64,000 nucleotides of DNA from an uncultured Pelagibacteraceae bacterium (GTDB lineage Bacteria > Pseudomonadota > Alphaproteobacteria > Pelagibacterales > Pelagibacteraceae), in NCBI GenBank assembly GCA_902587755.1, contig CACIMN010000001.1, positions 248,001 through 312,000 on the forward strand, given 5' to 3'. Of this stretch, positions 40,310-47,698 are shown piece after piece (position 1 is the first letter of the stretch; every line of letters starts with the position of its first letter). The notes below the pieces were generated by a model. The model saw only the letters and a program-made list of their open reading frames with translations, was not told the origin of the DNA and did no database searches. The position numbers and the translations under genes were made by a program.

Positions 40310-42287
<1,978 letters not shown>

Positions 42288-42314
42288 TCCCCATTGTTCT
42301 CAAACAAAAATTCA

Positions 42315-42345
42315 AAAAGGGCAGTTTTTACTGCCCTTTTTTTTT
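42315..42345 (+). terminator. Rho-independent terminator after groEL
   Basis: AAAAGGGCAG, a TTTTTA loop, CTGCCCTTTT and then a run of nine T. The stem is perfect over ten base pairs. It closes the groESL transcript 28 bases after the stop codon and could also act on the opposite strand for gene 42402-43706. Confidence 0.92.
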
Positions 42346-42363
42346 ATCTATACGAAAATGATT

Positions 42364-42388
42364 AGTGATGAAGGAGTGATGAAGGAAT
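42364..42388 (+). repeat. Left copy of the island-bracketing direct repeat
   Basis: A 25-base sequence built from AGTGATGAAGG and AGTGATGAAGGAAT, sitting between the groEL terminator and the first orphan gene. A copy differing only by one missing G lies at 44638-44661, at the far side of the two orphan genes. Internally it is a tandem of an 11-base unit, so slippage could also create it. Confidence 0.7.
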
Positions 42389-42401
42389 GATGAAGAATTG
42401 A

Positions 42402-43706
42402 TTATTTTTTTGGTAACAATTTATTCACTTTAGACATAAATTTTTTATTTTTTTTTAGTTTCTCTCCTATATCAGCAGTAAAATTTAGATCTAATTTTAT
42501 TAATTCATTCATTAAGTATGGGTCATCAAATATTGTTGATGGCATATAATATTTGACCAAATCTTCTAGTTTATCTTTATTTGTTTGAAAAACTTTAATT
42601 ATAAACTTTTTATTATTCCCTCTAAATAATCTAAGAATTCTTATTTCCTCTTTTAATGATTTACTTTCCTGAATTTTTTTTGGCACATAATTTAATAACC
42701 CCTCAAGATCATTGTAAGAATAAATTATATCTTCTATAAACTTTATTCTATTTCTATAATTAAATCTGTTACTCATAACAAAATTAAAAAAAGAGTCATC
42801 TTTGACCTTTTTCTCAATTTTTGATCTTCCATACCTTCCACCACCACCTAAAATCATAGATACTTGTTTCCAATTTTTAAAATGTTTTGTAAAATATTTT
42901 TCTGGATTTGAAATTGCCATTATCTGAGCAATAGCACTTTCTCCTTTAGTATTGTGATAATTAAAATAATCTTCTTCGTTATTAAAATAAGGTTGTTCCT
43001 TATGTTGTAATTTATAACCTTCTGAAAAAATGCGATTATATTGCTTATCAAAATTTATATGAGAGTATTTACGAACTATTCTTCCTGAAAAATCAGAGTC
43101 AAAAACCTTTGAAGATTTTATAATTTTAAATATCTCGTCTGTTTTTGGTTTTTTGTTAAAAATTCTAATTGTTCCTGAACTATCACTTCCCCTTCCACCA
43201 TATCCATAAAAAAAAAGATAAAATTTTTTATTTAAAGGAACATGAAGACAAAAAATATCTTCATAGGGATTATCTATACTATCAGCATAATCACCTTTAT
43301 AAGTTAGTTGACCATAAAATATGATTTTAAAGAACTTCTTAAATCTTCTAAAGAATTCACCAGTATTAACATGATGATCAACCAAATTTTTAAAATCTGA
43401 GTAATCATGATTTTCAATATTTAAAACATTATTTTTTTCGAAGAAGTATTTTTCAATATCTCTGTCAGAATAATTATTTTTAAATTTTTTAACAAATTTT
43501 GAAAATATATTTTTTGGGTTATTTTTTGTAAATTGATATAAGTTAATTTCTTGTTTGATTTGAGATATGTTTCTGACACTATCTAAAACGATACAAGTTA
43601 AAAAGTCGCCACCTTCTTCACATTGGTCATTTTTAGTTTTTTTTTTTAAGTTTTTACAAAAAGCGTTTATGTCAAAATGTTTATAAATATACTCAATTTT
43701 TCTCAT
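42402..43706 (-). CDS. Orphan 434-residue protein, function unknown
   Basis: I do not recognise this protein. It is rich in Lys, Phe, Tyr and Asn, has no signal peptide or membrane helix, and includes two glycine-rich stretches, FYGYGGRGSDSSGT in the middle and ILGGGGRYGRSKI further on. The last 120 residues are helical with repeats of hydrophobic residues and DDPYLMNELIKL-like sequence that faintly resembles DUF4116-type repeats. It has no partner gene within 100 bases, and its composition differs from the core genes. It lies in a segment bracketed by direct repeats, with a related repeat just upstream of its start. Confidence 0.7.
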   Translation of the reverse strand: MRKIEYIYKHFDINAFCKNLKKKTKNDQCEEGGDFLTCIVLDSVRNISQIKQEINLYQFTKNNPKNIFSKFVKKFKNNYSDRDIEKYFFEKNNVLNIENHDYSDFKNLVDHHVNTGEFFRRFKKFFKIIFYGQLTYKGDYADSIDNPYEDIFCLHVPLNKKFYLFFYGYGGRGSDSSGTIRIFNKKPKTDEIFKIIKSSKVFDSDFSGRIVRKYSHINFDKQYNRIFSEGYKLQHKEQPYFNNEEDYFNYHNTKGESAIAQIMAISNPEKYFTKHFKNWKQVSMILGGGGRYGRSKIEKKVKDDSFFNFVMSNRFNYRNRIKFIEDIIYSYNDLEGLLNYVPKKIQESKSLKEEIRILRLFRGNNKKFIIKVFQTNKDKLEDLVKYYMPSTIFDDPYLMNELIKLDLNFTADIGEKLKKNKKFMSKVNKLLPKK

Positions 43707-43710
43707 ACTC

Positions 43711-43785
43711 TAGTTTAACTGCCATCTTTTATAAAATCACCTTTTGAATTGCTTTAAATAAGGATAAAGATGCCTTTGTACACGC
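43711..43785 (+). repeat. Repeat block (unit B then degenerate unit A) upstream of orphan gene 1
   Basis: Bases 43733-43760 match unit B (also at 44611-44638) at 26 of 28 positions. Bases 43761-43785 match unit A (44533-44557 and 44580-44604) at 21 of 25. In the frame reading KDAFVHA, three of the four differences in unit A are synonymous third-codon changes (GCT/GCC, TTC/TTT, GTT/GTA). Bases 43711-43752 also match 45483-45524 at 29 of 42 without gaps. Confidence 0.72.
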
Positions 43786-43830
43786 TTCAAAAAATCCATT
43801 ATTAGTTTGAAATTTTTTTTTATTCATAAA

Positions 43831-44481
43831 CTATTTAAGTTTTTTTTTATCATTTATTAATTGAGTTGCTTTGGCAAAAATTAAGGATCTGTCACTTTTT
43901 TTTAATATTTTTAGTTTCTTTTTTTTAAATACTTTTTTGAAGTCTTTACCAAATTTGTCTATGACTATTTTTTCTGCTTGTTTTAAAGTTCTAAACTTTC
44001 TTGGACCTAATGAACCAATATTTAATCTTTTTTTATAATTATATGCGCTTACAGATGTAAATTTATTTCCTTTGCTAGTTAAATAATCTTTTTCATTTAA
44101 TAAGTCCGCAAATTCAGAGTCCGTAAGTTTATCATTTAATAATCTTAATTCTTTAAATTTTTCATCAGTTATTCTATTAGGAAATAATGTTTTTACAGCG
44201 ATATCATATTTTTTTAACATGATAGATAAATTATCCTTACTATATGCCAGATCTTCCTGAATAATTTCCCCATCTTTCTCTACTTTAAGTTTAATAGTAT
44301 ATCTTCCAGATCCCTTTTTTCCGTACTCATATATTTTCAATCCAGGACAATCTTTAAGTCTTTTTTTTATTTTTATTGCCTCTGTAGAATTAATAGTTTC
44401 GTTCTGAGGTGGAGTACCAATAGGTTTTTCAGTTTTAAAAGAACCATATTGATTTTTGCTTTTAAATTCAGATTTATCCAT
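43831..44481 (-). CDS. Orphan 216-residue basic protein with a recombinase-like helical motif
   Basis: Function not recognised. Residues about 45-95 form a beta-rich segment (GSGRYTIKLKVEKDGEIIQ) that could be a small DNA-binding or integrase-like fold. Residues about 118-155, LTDSEFADLLNEKDYLTSKG followed by NKFTSVSAYNYKKRL, resemble the helix-turn-helix found in the tails of serine recombinases and phage proteins. The C-terminus is very Lys-rich. No catalytic domain accompanies it, so it is not a complete recombinase. It lies in the repeat-bracketed segment. Confidence 0.65.
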   Translation of the reverse strand: MDKSEFKSKNQYGSFKTEKPIGTPPQNETINSTEAIKIKKRLKDCPGLKIYEYGKKGSGRYTIKLKVEKDGEIIQEDLAYSKDNLSIMLKKYDIAVKTLFPNRITDEKFKELRLLNDKLTDSEFADLLNEKDYLTSKGNKFTSVSAYNYKKRLNIGSLGPRKFRTLKQAEKIVIDKFGKDFKKVFKKKKLKILKKSDRSLIFAKATQLINDKKKLK

Positions 44482-44532
44482 TTCAAATTTTAACCTACCA
44501 CTAAAATGAAGTCGAGCATTGTTCTAAATTTG

Positions 44533-44557
44533 AGGAGAAAGATGCTTTCGTTCACGC
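44533..44557 (+). repeat. Direct repeat unit A, copy 1
   Basis: A 25-base unit (starting AGGAGAAAGATGC, ending TTCACGC) identical to 44580-44604, 47 bases away. The plus-strand frame reads EEKDAFVHACF then stop. It lies 52 bases upstream of the start of the minus-strand gene 43831-44481. Confidence 0.85.
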
Positions 44558-44579
44558 TTGTTTTTAACTGATAAAATAT

Positions 44580-44638
44580 AGGAGAAAGATGCTTTCGTTC
44601 ACGCATCAAAAAAGTCATCTTTTGAATTGCTTTAAATA
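44580..44638 (+). repeat. Direct repeat unit A copy 2 joined to unit B
   Basis: Unit A (44580-44604) is identical to 44533-44557, followed by unit B (44611-44638). Here the two units share one open frame, KDAFVHASKKSSFELL then TAA, suggesting that the repeat family derives from the 3' end of a gene. At 43733 the order is reversed (B then A) and out of frame, as expected from unequal recombination in a tandem array. Confidence 0.8.
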
Positions 44639-44661
44639 GTGATGAAGAGTGATGAAGGAAT
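44638..44661 (+). repeat. Right copy of the island-bracketing direct repeat
   Basis: Twenty-four bases, AGTGATGAAG then AGTGATGAAGGAAT, matching 42364-42388 except for one missing G. With the left copy it brackets 2.25 kb holding the two orphan genes 42402-43706 and 43831-44481. Confidence 0.7.
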
Positions 44662-44763
44662 TTTCAAAATGTTAAGTAAATCAAGTATTATTAGAAACCA
44701 GTATGAGAATGTAATACTTTTCCATTTAGAGAACACTCTAAATACTTACACTAAACAAAATTA

Positions 44764-44798
44764 GAACCCCTGAAACGAAAGTTTTGAGGGTTTTTTTT
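44764..44798 (+). terminator. Terminator without an obvious plus-strand gene
   Basis: AACCCCTGAAAC, loop GAAA, GTTTTGAGGGTT and then a run of T (to 44798). The stem has one mismatch and two G-T pairs. The better T-run is on the plus strand, where the nearest complete gene upstream is groEL, which has its own terminator. It may instead end the minus-strand gene at 44804, where the following T-run is weaker (CTAATTTTG). Confidence 0.7.
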
Positions 44799-44803
44799 GT
44801 TTT

Positions 44804-45431
44804 TTATTTATATATTTCTCTAGCGATTATAAAAGATGGATCAACAAAATTTTTGCCCTTTTTGTATCTTTCAAACTTAGGAAATTTAACTAAAAAAAGC
44901 ATCATTACGTATATTTAAAAATCTTTTAATCTCATTATGATAGACTGGATCATGGTAAAATTTTGGATATTCTAATACTAAAGTAGACTCTTGAGGATAT
45001 TTTTCCCAATTATTATAAAATTTTGTTAAATAATTAAAATATTTTTTTTTTAATTTTTCCTTATTTTTGAAAATATTTATATACATAAAAGGAATTAAAT
45101 CACCAAGTATATTTAAATTATTTCTAACGAAACCCCTTGAGGTCATTGAGGCATAGATATCTTCAAAATCTCTTTTAATAATAATTATTTTAATTTTATT
45201 TTTTAGCAAAAAATTACTTGGTTTATAAATATGTGCTAAACCATGAGTTTTATATTTTGTCTCAATATATAAATTAGATTTTCCAAAATTGTCTAGATAT
45301 TTTATTAAAGATACAGATCCACATCCACCAGGAGATACTACCAAAAAATCTGGTATTTCTTTCAATTTTAGGTAGTTTACTTTTATCTTTCTCTGTATTC
45401 CTCTCTTTATGTAGACTAATAAATTAGGCAT
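44804..45431 (-). pseudogene. Sulfotransferase-like gene with a frameshift near the 3' end
   Basis: From the ATG at 45431 (GAGGATATTT before it) the frame runs 181 codons to a TAA at 44886. The protein has a sulfotransferase-type P-loop FLVVSPGGCGSVSLIKYL and a second conserved block IIIKRDFEDIYASMTSRG, fitting the PAPS-dependent sulfotransferase superfamily. At the end, GATGC is followed by seven T (plus-strand A7 at 44892-44898). Removing one T opens the frame for a further 27 or so codons, reading LVKFPKFERYKKGKNFVDPS and ending REIYK-stop at 44804-44806. The shifted tail looks like a normal family C-terminus. It may be a recent mutation, a sequencing error or slippage. Confidence 0.75.
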
Positions 45432-45482
45432 AAATATCCTCAAAAAACTATAGTGATTTATATAAATAGCTTTTCATAAACT

Positions 45483-45524
45483 CAATTTAACCCCACTCTT
45501 CAATAATATCATCTTTTAAATTAG
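45483..45524 (+). repeat. Degenerate repeat relic upstream of the sulfotransferase-like gene
   Basis: Forty-two bases matching 43711-43752 at 29 positions without gaps, including TTTAAC and ATCTTTTAAATT/ACCTTTTGAATT. In this AT-rich sequence the match is suggestive only. It lies 52 bases upstream of the start at 45431. Confidence 0.4.
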
Positions 45525-45623
45525 AGAGTTTTCTCAATTAAGTTTTCAATGAACTTATTAAATAAGTGAGTATTAGCGTATTATGTTTAGATATGTAATC
45601 CCTTATTTTCTTTAATTAATTCT

Positions 45624-45654
45624 AAAAAGACCATCTCAAGATGGCCTTTTTTTT
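45624..45654 (+). terminator. Bidirectional terminator before typA
   Basis: AAAAAGACCATCT pairs with AGATGGCCTTTTTTTT across a tight loop, with one A-C mismatch. There are eight T on the plus strand and five T on the minus strand, so it can act both ways. No protein gene precedes it on the plus strand; 45560-45623 may be the body of a small RNA. Confidence 0.75.
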
Positions 45655-45669
45655 ATGTTAAGTTAAATA

Positions 45670-45786
45670 ATGTCAAAAAGATATAGTGGTAAATCATTTA
45701 AAGACTCTAGTGTTAAAAAAAAACCTAAATTGAGCTTTAAAGAAAAAAGAAAATTTAAAAAAGAAAAGCAAAAAAAGACAAATTAA
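45670..45786 (+). CDS. Possible 38-residue basic protein
   Basis: The ORF begins MSKRYSGKSFKDSS and ends KEKQKKTN; nearly half its residues are Lys or Arg, and none are strongly hydrophobic. It follows a terminator and precedes typA on the same strand. No clear ribosome-binding site is present (AAGTTAAATAATG), and a Lys-rich frame is easy to find by chance in A-rich DNA. It is listed because the non-lysine part (RYSGKSFKDSS) looks protein-like. Confidence 0.4.
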   Translation: MSKRYSGKSFKDSSVKKKPKLSFKEKRKFKKEKQKKTN

Positions 45787-45871: not shown

Positions 45872-47698
45872 ATGAACAATAATATCAGAAACATCACAAT
45901 CATAGCCCATGTTGATCATGGCAAAACTACTCTAATTGATAATTTAATGAAACAAAGTGGTTCATTTAGAGATAATGAAGTTGTTGCTGATAGATTAATG
46001 GACTCAGGAGAGCTTGAAAAAGAAAGAGGAATTACAATTTTAGCAAAACCTGCATCAATTAATTGGAACAATTCAAGAATAAATATAATCGATACTCCAG
46101 GTCACAGAGACTTTGCTGCTGAAGTTGAAAGAGTTTTAAGTATGGCAGATGGGGCATTGCTATTAATTGACTCTGCTGAAGGTGTTATGCCTCAAACAAA
46201 ATTTGTATTATCAAAAGCACTTAAACAAGGATTAAAACCAATTGTTGTTATTAATAAATTAGATAAAGCTGATCAAAGAGCCAATGAAGTTTTAGATGAA
46301 ACATTTGATTTATTTGTTAGCTTAGATGCAAATGAAGAACAATTAGATTTTCCAGTACTGTATGCAAGTGGAAGATCAGGTTGGGCTGATCATGAAGTTG
46401 ATGGTCCAAGAGAAAATTTAAATCCTTTGTTAGATTTAATCGTTGATCATGTAAAACCTGCAGAATTTGATAAAAACAAACCTTTTGCGATGTTATCAAC
46501 ACTACTTTATGCAGATAGTTTTTTAGGAAGAAGTTTAGTTGGAAGAATTACACAAGGTACCGCAAAGGCTAATCAATCTATAAAAGCAATCAATTTAAAT
46601 GGTAAAAAAGTTGATGAAGGAAAATTAACAAAAATTTTTAGATATGAAGGAACTAAAAAAGTTCCAATAGATGTTGGTGAAGCTGGGGATATTGTAGTTG
46701 TTGCTGGGTTAGAAAAAGCGAACGTTGCTGATACCATATGTGACCTAGAGATTAATGAGCCTATACCTGCTACTCCGATAGATCCTCCTACAATGTCAAT
46801 TACAATTACTGTGAATACATCACCTTTAGCTGGAACTGAAGGTAAGAAACTAACCAGTACCCAAATAAGAGATAGATTGGTTCAAGAGGCACAAAATAAT
46901 GTTGGTATTACATTTTCAGAAAACGGGGGAAAAGACTCTTTTGTTGTTAGTGGTAGAGGTGAGCTAATGTTGGAAATTCTTTTAACTCAAATGAGAAGAG
47001 AAGGTTTTGAAATGACAGTTAGTCCTCCAAAAGTATTATATAAAACTGATGAAAGTGGAAATAAGCTTGAACCAATTGAGGAAATTACTATGGACCTTGA
47101 TGAAGAACATTCATCAAAAGTAATTGATTCAATGAACAAAAGAAAAGGTAAACTAATAGAACTAAAAGATACTGGAACCAACAAAAAAAGATTAATTTTT
47201 CATGCACCTACTAGAGGGTTAATGGGCTACACAAGTAGATTTCTTACACTTACAAAAGGCAATGGAGTGATAAATAGAACATTCCATAGCTATGGTCCTT
47301 TTGAAGGAGAAATGGAAGGTAGAAGAAATGGAGCATTAATCTCTATGGAACAAGGTAAAGCAGTTGCATTCGCGATATTTAATCTACAAGCAAGAGGAGA
47401 AATGTTTGTAACTCACAATGATGCGGTTTATCCAGGAATGATAGTTGGTCTTTCACCTAAACCAGGTGACATGATAATCAATGTTATGAAAGGTAAAAAG
47501 TTAACAAATATGAGAACTCAAGGTACTGACGAAAATGTTGTCCTTACACCCGTCAGAACAATGTCTATTGCTGAACAATTAAGTATGCTTAATACTGATG
47601 AAGCTTTAGAGATAACTCCAGATTCTTGTCGATTGAGAAAAGCAATTCTTGATCCACACGAAAGAAAGAAAAGCGAAAAAGCTACAGCTGCAGCCTAA
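45872..47698 (+). CDS. typA: Ribosome-associated GTPase TypA/BipA
   Basis: A 608-residue translational GTPase needed for ribosome assembly and stress adaptation. The G1 motif is AHVDHGKTTLID near residue 11, switch II is DTPGHRDFAAEV and the NKLD motif is VVINKLDKADQRA. The EF-G-like domains III and V and the BipA C-terminal domain follow (VSGRGELMLEILLTQMRREG). It overlaps the convergent YczE-like gene by four bases. Confidence 0.97.
   Translation: MNNNIRNITIIAHVDHGKTTLIDNLMKQSGSFRDNEVVADRLMDSGELEKERGITILAKPASINWNNSRINIIDTPGHRDFAAEVERVLSMADGALLLIDSAEGVMPQTKFVLSKALKQGLKPIVVINKLDKADQRANEVLDETFDLFVSLDANEEQLDFPVLYASGRSGWADHEVDGPRENLNPLLDLIVDHVKPAEFDKNKPFAMLSTLLYADSFLGRSLVGRITQGTAKANQSIKAINLNGKKVDEGKLTKIFRYEGTKKVPIDVGEAGDIVVVAGLEKANVADTICDLEINEPIPATPIDPPTMSITITVNTSPLAGTEGKKLTSTQIRDRLVQEAQNNVGITFSENGGKDSFVVSGRGELMLEILLTQMRREGFEMTVSPPKVLYKTDESGNKLEPIEEITMDLDEEHSSKVIDSMNKRKGKLIELKDTGTNKKRLIFHAPTRGLMGYTSRFLTLTKGNGVINRTFHSYGPFEGEMEGRRNGALISMEQGKAVAFAIFNLQARGEMFVTHNDAVYPGMIVGLSPKPGDMIINVMKGKKLTNMRTQGTDENVVLTPVRTMSIAEQLSMLNTDEALEITPDSCRLRKAILDPHERKKSEKATAAA

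Follow-up and report, generated by a model that had tools for sequence, protein, structure and literature searches.

Small integrative elements lacking a recombinase gene probably insert at the groEL stop codon in SAR11

The DNA analysed here, hereafter the window, is a stretch of 64,000 nucleotides from an uncultured Pelagibacteraceae bacterium (contig CACIMN010000001.1, positions 248,001 to 312,000). Within it, groEL (40623..42287, plus strand) is followed by typA/bipA (45872..47698, plus strand), its conserved right-hand neighbour. Three genes on the minus strand lie between them: gene A, a 434-aa orphan (42402..43706); gene B, a 216-aa orphan (43831..44481); and a sulfotransferase-like ORF (44886..45443) whose match to Sulfotransfer_1, at 17.3 bits, falls short of the cut-off of 22. 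A short conserved ORF for a basic protein (MSKRYSGKSFKDSS...) occupies 45670-45786. The window contains no tRNA gene.

An earlier note on this DNA drew attention to related repeats upstream of these three genes, at 43711-43785, 44533-44638 and 45483-45524, and all three are present. Local alignment scores were compared with those of 2000 dinucleotide shuffles: the first and second copies score 46 (shuffled maximum 32), the second and third 28 (maximum 25), and the first and third 32 (maximum 29). The third copy, described as decayed and proposed for such a test, stands out most clearly against another genome, as 45483-45600 scores 118 (shuffled maximum 30) with the alpha right end of locus L141. 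It is a related repeat as the note held, but it continues to 45595. A fourth block had been overlooked: three copies of AGTGATGAAGG at 42363-42394. The 'units A and B' of the note correspond to portions of element ends together with a tandem repeat of 47 bp.

The window holds two elements, with all of their end features read on the plus strand. E1 (42285-44711) has ends of a family termed beta and carries genes A and B; E2 (44712-45595) has ends of a family termed alpha. E1 starts with an element-borne groEL 3′ flank and terminator hairpin (AAAAAGGGCAGTTTTTACTGCCC plus a T-run; 42285..42345) that is kept in 20 beta left ends and is unlike the groEL flank of close relatives without an insertion. 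The AGTGATGAAGG copies follow just 3′ of groEL as arm-like repeats of the left end. At the other extremity, a 47-bp tandem repeat, AGGAGAAAGATGCTTTCGTTCACGCTTGTTTTTAACTGATAAAATAT (44533..44604; ∼1.5–2 copies, four in L189), adjoins the attR-like beta right end (44620..44711), which contains arm-like repeats GTGATGAAGAGTGATGAAGG at 44639-44658 and finishes in TATGAGAATG immediately before TAA. Of the block noted at 44533-44638, the part 44533-44604 is this separate tandem repeat beside the element end. The 47-bp repeat (44533-44593) also has GAGGAGAAAGATGCT, resembling groEL codons near the 3′ end of that gene (CCAGAGGAAAAAGATGCT; 42187-42212), which may be chance or an old copy of the groEL tail.

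Between genes A and B, the related repeat at 43711..43785 proved to be a truncated beta right end (43733-43759) fused to one unit of the 47-bp repeat. We read it as the scar of two elements fused via their arm repeats, because a beta element at L263 has gene A without gene B and a beta element at L189 has gene B. E2 begins with TAA and a flank with the hairpin ACCCCTGAAACGAAAGTTTTGAGGGTTTTT (44712..44802), an alpha-type module that lies directly 3′ of groEL in L004, L005, L074 and L087. Its cargo is the sulfotransferase-like ORF, and its diverged right end (45494..45595) finishes in GATATG before TAA and matches the alpha end of L141. Beyond it lies the displaced native groEL 3′ flank (45596..45657; GACCATCTCAAGATGGCCTTTTTTTT), which matches the empty relatives L062-L066 and includes the native terminator, likewise displaced, as a hairpin at about 45630-45655. 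The distal E2 is more diverged than the groEL-proximal E1, in agreement with the expectation for serial insertion.

A similarity search of congeners with the repeat DNA of the window led again to the groEL–typA interval. Both genes were placed in 151 genomes; 100 loci were retrieved, and 82 of these, the window included, have both genes on one contig. Gap lengths are two-peaked: the interval is short (86–290 nt; empty) in 37 loci and long (624–5666 nt; filled) in 45, with no locus at 300–600 nt. An empty site comprises the groEL terminator and, in many genomes, a small basic protein gene after it; the ORF at 45670-45786 of the window is retained in many filled loci and in the longer empty ones. 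A pattern search found right ends in 14 of the 45 filled loci and in none of the 37 empty loci, and 14 is a lower bound because visual checks revealed right ends overlooked by the pattern in at least L116, L117 and L124. The remaining 31 filled loci are negative by pattern, and many filled loci have no recognisable end, so some cargo is old or was gained by another route.

The insertion point is sharply defined. All 20 beta left ends sit directly at the groEL stop and leave the groEL ORF intact, and all share one layout: groEL ending in ATG, then TAATCCCC or a near match to it, a hairpin terminator and TGATGAAGG repeated two to four times. Right ends finish in ATG followed by TAA, as groEL itself does (last codon 42282-42284, stop 42285-42287, the attL-like core), and ATGTAA is common to both element junctions. 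Across 28 distinct right ends of the beta family, the consensus frequency stays at ∼1.0 over the final 80 nt and TAA is present in 28 of 28; from the next base on, it is 0.45–0.68, which is background. The last 85 nt have a mean identity of 99.0% and a minimum of 95.3% (22 loci, 231 pairs). groEL identities from this 22-locus comparison are too low owing to misregister, and the contrast with the ends was taken from the window and L189, in which the gene B region is 95.7% identical over 768 nt versus 82% for the groEL flank. Near-invariant stretches thus span ∼110 nt at the left and ∼90 nt at the right of beta elements.

Displaced flanks tell the same story from the far side of the elements. 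The comparison covered nine filled loci whose right end is near typA. For each, the 60 nt past the last right end were matched to two groEL flanks, that of the nearest empty relative and the locus's own. The empty relative's flank was the better match in 9 of 9 loci, most clearly in L074 (95% versus 43%). The aligned sequences show, as far as sequence can, that elements insert between ATG and TAA of groEL, keep the gene intact and push its native flank downstream. The earlier note had suggested modular, cassette-like gain of genes with the repeat as a junction. Such gain is borne out by the empty and filled sites, by the varied cargo between the same ends and by the displaced flanks. The junction is real as well, but it is the groEL stop codon and not the 5′ edge of each gene.

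At least two families of ends exist, beta with TGATGAAGG repeats and alpha with CAATGAACTTT repeats; arm repeats are not obvious in alpha left ends, and further variants occur in L069, L093 and L117, and in L141 and L148. At L004:1430-1590 (identical to L153), beta left and right ends abut without cargo, a remnant like a microCIME. L141, L148, L130 and L230 contain plus-strand cassettes in which a gene is followed by a mimic of the groEL tail (GGAATGGACATGTAA type) with no arm-bearing right end; these are another element type. In L117, a fragment comprising the atpG 3′ end and the atpD 5′ end lies 2.5–2.8 kb past groEL, after a right end of a third type.

The note had also proposed scanning genomes for the repeat, and such a scan returned mostly this one locus, an outcome that favours the note over its own refuting conditions. 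A degenerate right-end pattern run over 84,980 species genomes found 65 stretches, 58 of them in Pelagibacterales (SAR11) and seven due to chance. One SAR11 stretch (L167) is also a chance match, and in ∼52 of the other 57, groEL, its right-hand neighbours typA/yczE or both are present, either in the stretch itself or in a longer fetch around it. Three stretches (L166, L224 and L230) end at hisG. A second target at hisG was considered and rejected, as hisG is the right-hand neighbour of groEL in L227, from another lineage.

Two SAR11 stretches lie away from groEL. In L211 (6438-7512), alpha cassettes are found between rppH and atpC, after the groEL-tail-like sequence ATGGGTGGAATGCACATTTAATACG; the atpG/atpD fragment of L117 is perhaps linked to this atpC site. 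The other (L216/L231, a RIS_SAG_23 contig; L231:6036-14000) is a tRNA-integrated island with a gene for a 316-aa integrase. Directly 3′ of the integrase gene is groEL-tail-like sequence, and then an array of several alpha cassettes, which shows that cassette arrays can leave the groEL locus. The 316-aa integrase was considered as the cassette recombinase and rejected as unproven; its relatives adjoin tRNAs without arrays.

Cargo differs between the same beta ends in full elements of other species. Type I restriction-modification (R-M) sets were confirmed in the beta elements of L067, L254 and L255, and those of L256-L258, L260 and L264-L267 are assigned here only from the size of the genes and the start of their sequences. 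Type II systems were confirmed in L078 (HaeII-type), L166 and L261 (methylase plus HNH nuclease). In other beta elements, the cargo encodes small orphans or proteins with MORN repeats or DUF805. Cargo is reversed relative to the same end in L078, L256, L261, L265 and L267, and the repeat is therefore not a gene-upstream element. A conserved 110-aa protein (MQQLELFDFRRDILF...) of no Pfam family is encoded next to the right end in beta elements with R-M cargo (L254, L256, L257, L259, L260, L261, L265, L266 and L267), and might serve in recombination or control.

Genes A and B have no family match in Pfam, PADLOC or PHROG, and their predicted structures are too poor for use (pLDDT 45 and 53). Homologues of gene A at 62–65% amino acid identity occur in the L263 beta element (62%) and in a tRNA island of genome G347. 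Relative to L263, gene A is a mosaic, with 87.5% nucleotide identity in one part and 66% in another. An iterative search connects it with cassette genes of L101 and L231, by E-values computed within the set. Gene B recurs at 95% amino acid identity in the L189 beta element of another species. What L189 retains of gene A is a 3′ stub; the A+B composite therefore moved and later lost most of A. The G347 island (L334:1-19000) is a second mobile context for gene A, with an integrase, a C5-methylase and other likely R-M genes.

A recombinase was sought near groEL and in the cargo. No PF00589 match was found near groEL in the 151 congeners or in 49 further element-bearing genomes, with contig numbers as given; among the congeners, the nearest match on a groEL contig is ∼74 kb away (G036). 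The match in G229 is the tRNA-island integrase, and the sole match in the window's own genome (G000, 96% complete) is a 325-aa Xer-like protein. The cargo scanned holds no recombinase genes, and the cargo listings, on which this judgement solely depends, show no transfer genes. No full-length autonomous relative (ICE, IME or prophage) occurs at groEL in ∼200 genomes, and no excised circle or attP junction contig was seen among assembled genomes. Five scans of IMG/VR for element ends or arms gave nothing or chance coding matches, groEL-tail mimics there were phage groEL genes or chance, and 44500-44665 has only chance 28-nt matches to phage DNA.

We consider it probable that the groEL stop codon is an attB-like insertion site for small, non-autonomous integrative elements in SAR11. 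The sequences show that each insertion falls within ATGTAA at the end of groEL and brings a replacement 3′ flank, a terminator and left-end repeats; a conserved right end closes the element, and the displaced native TAA-flank continues from there. Repeated insertion builds a tandem array with the newest element adjoining groEL; in the window E1, with genes A and B between beta ends, lies proximal and the diverged alpha element E2, with its sulfotransferase-like gene, beyond. The recombinase would presumably act in trans, because none is encoded in any element or groEL neighbourhood. We take the short direct repeats close to either end to be putative arm-type sites of a tyrosine recombinase acting on the core. 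The right end contributes two arm-like repeats to the left of the core, and the left end three to its right; with ∼six shared core bases, the whole measures ∼220 bp. Judged by this layout, the joined ends would resemble the attP of lambda-type tyrosine recombinases, and the predicted circle junction runs from CCAGTATGAGAATG directly into TAATCCCCATT, then through the terminator to AGTGATGAAGGAGTGATGAAGG. Recombination among the arm repeats themselves might produce fused scars such as 43711-43785 and cargo-less remnants such as L004/L153. Counting against this account are the absence of a recombinase, excised circle or attP junction from the sequences examined, the fruitless IMG/VR scans, the 31 filled loci negative by pattern and the lack of obvious arm repeats in alpha left ends.

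How elements move today is a more tentative matter. Ends that hardly vary and cargo that is still intact speak for recent activity. A further-reaching reading, which we stop short of calling probable, is that SAR11 maintains a pool of active integrase-free elements that share the groEL-stop att site, depend on a trans-acting mover and spread R-M systems together with defence genes of uncharacterised kinds, A and B among them. That mover might be a phage, a conjugative element or a repurposed host enzyme, a suggestion as tentative as the pool itself. Alternatively, the insertions may be old and lack any recombinase now, with cassettes swapped by RecA-dependent homologous recombination via groEL, typA and the element ends. 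SAR11 recombines heavily (PMC12374537), no recombinase was found at groEL, the near-invariant ends could result from homologous recombination as well as anchor it, and the mosaic gene A fits such exchange. Nonetheless, we find swapping unlikely as the whole account: tandem arrays, displaced native flanks and the off-groEL array by a tRNA-island integrase require insertion too, and right-end conservation stops exactly at TAA. A trans-acting recombinase and present-day homologous exchange both fit, and the data do not separate them. Somewhat more doubtful is the proposal that the elements are passive, decayed remnants of ICEs, IMEs or prophages of groEL that lost their recombination modules. Retained att sites, the missing recombinase, tandem placement at a gene's 3′ end and decayed distal members are all known from CIMEs (PMC7563491), and E2 is indeed the more diverged. 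However, beta ends ∼99% identical across species and interchangeable, intact R-M cargo look active, and the survey of ∼200 genomes turned up no full-length autonomous relative at groEL.

Two further explanations are already largely refuted. Integron-like cassettes with attC-type sites would account for arrays of mostly single-gene modules, each with a ∼100-nt site (L216/L231, L141), one of them directly 3′ of an integrase gene. This is very improbable, since attC-like folding was sought and rejected (z −0.1 to 1.4 on both strands), the L231 integrase is of the tRNA-island type and matches integron integrases weakly, and no IntI integrase was found near groEL in the 151 plus 49 genomes. Scarcely any credence is left for a promoter or RNA element that regulates each gene from upstream, or for a dispersed MITE/REP repeat. 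Each repeat of the window does lie upstream of a minus-strand gene, but cargo flips relative to the same end, the matches concentrate at one locus, and the window has no Rfam match. Terminal inverted repeats are absent, the ends TAATCCCC.. and ..TATGAGAATG not being inverted repeats of one another, and a test for MITE- or Tn7-like elements found no transposase domain in the cargo scanned.

Under the preferred reading, of a groEL insertion site for non-autonomous elements, genes A and B become defence candidates, because beta elements spread R-M systems and probably other defence genes. A defence role is plausible for both, given that a homologue of A sits beside R-M genes in G347 and that A is linked to cassette genes of L101 and L231. 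SAR11 genomes are streamlined, and few mobile elements have been described in them. For the gain of defence genes against abundant phages, the groEL locus offers a concrete route: insertion is precise, sister species have empty sites, and the R-M cargo is interchangeable. Its conserved ends can serve as a sequence tag with which to look for further candidate defence genes in public genomes of SAR11, and the predicted attP of ∼220 bp makes the mechanism directly testable. If the pool exists, it distributes R-M and uncharacterised defence genes through the ocean's most abundant bacteria.

The open-access literature, which is the body of work searched, yielded no report of elements inserted at groEL in SAR11. 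The hypervariable regions HVR1-4 of SAR11 likewise combine strain-specific gene content with a conserved backbone, and the available passages of that study do not mention the groEL locus among them (PMC2217521). The closest architectural parallel is with the CIMEs of Streptococcus, found with ICEs and IMEs. Like these, groEL elements have att-like ends and no recombinase or transfer genes, are of comparable size (1–13 kb), accrete in tandem at a conserved gene's 3′ end, and include cargo-less micro-remnants and decayed members distal to the target (PMC7563491). Unlike CIMEs, they target groEL in SAR11, show no autonomous ICE, IME or prophage partner at the site in the genomes surveyed, keep ends nearly invariant across species and carry largely R-M cargo. 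They are CIME-like in architecture and are not filed as CIMEs, because no ICE or IME derivation is in evidence.

SGI1 encodes its own integrase. Like the groEL elements, it inserts at a gene's 3′ end, that of trmE, without destroying the gene, but it is tens of kb long (PMC8409611). Additive flexible genomic islands such as fGI-2 of Methylophilaceae likewise grow by successive insertions at the end of one gene, in an aquatic bacterium with a streamlined genome, and repeats of the target's 3′ end are left behind (PMC10872708). The target of fGI-2 is a tRNA, whereas groEL elements use the stop codon and terminator of a protein gene, and for the latter arm-like repeats and element families have been defined. 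Tycheposons of Prochlorococcus, as described second-hand in the same source, are also cargo-carrying integrative elements of marine picoplankton, but they are tRNA-bounded and carry a tyrosine recombinase, and groEL elements do neither (PMC10872708). The groEL elements are a variant of known integrative-element biology, one with a missing mover and many defence genes among its cargo.
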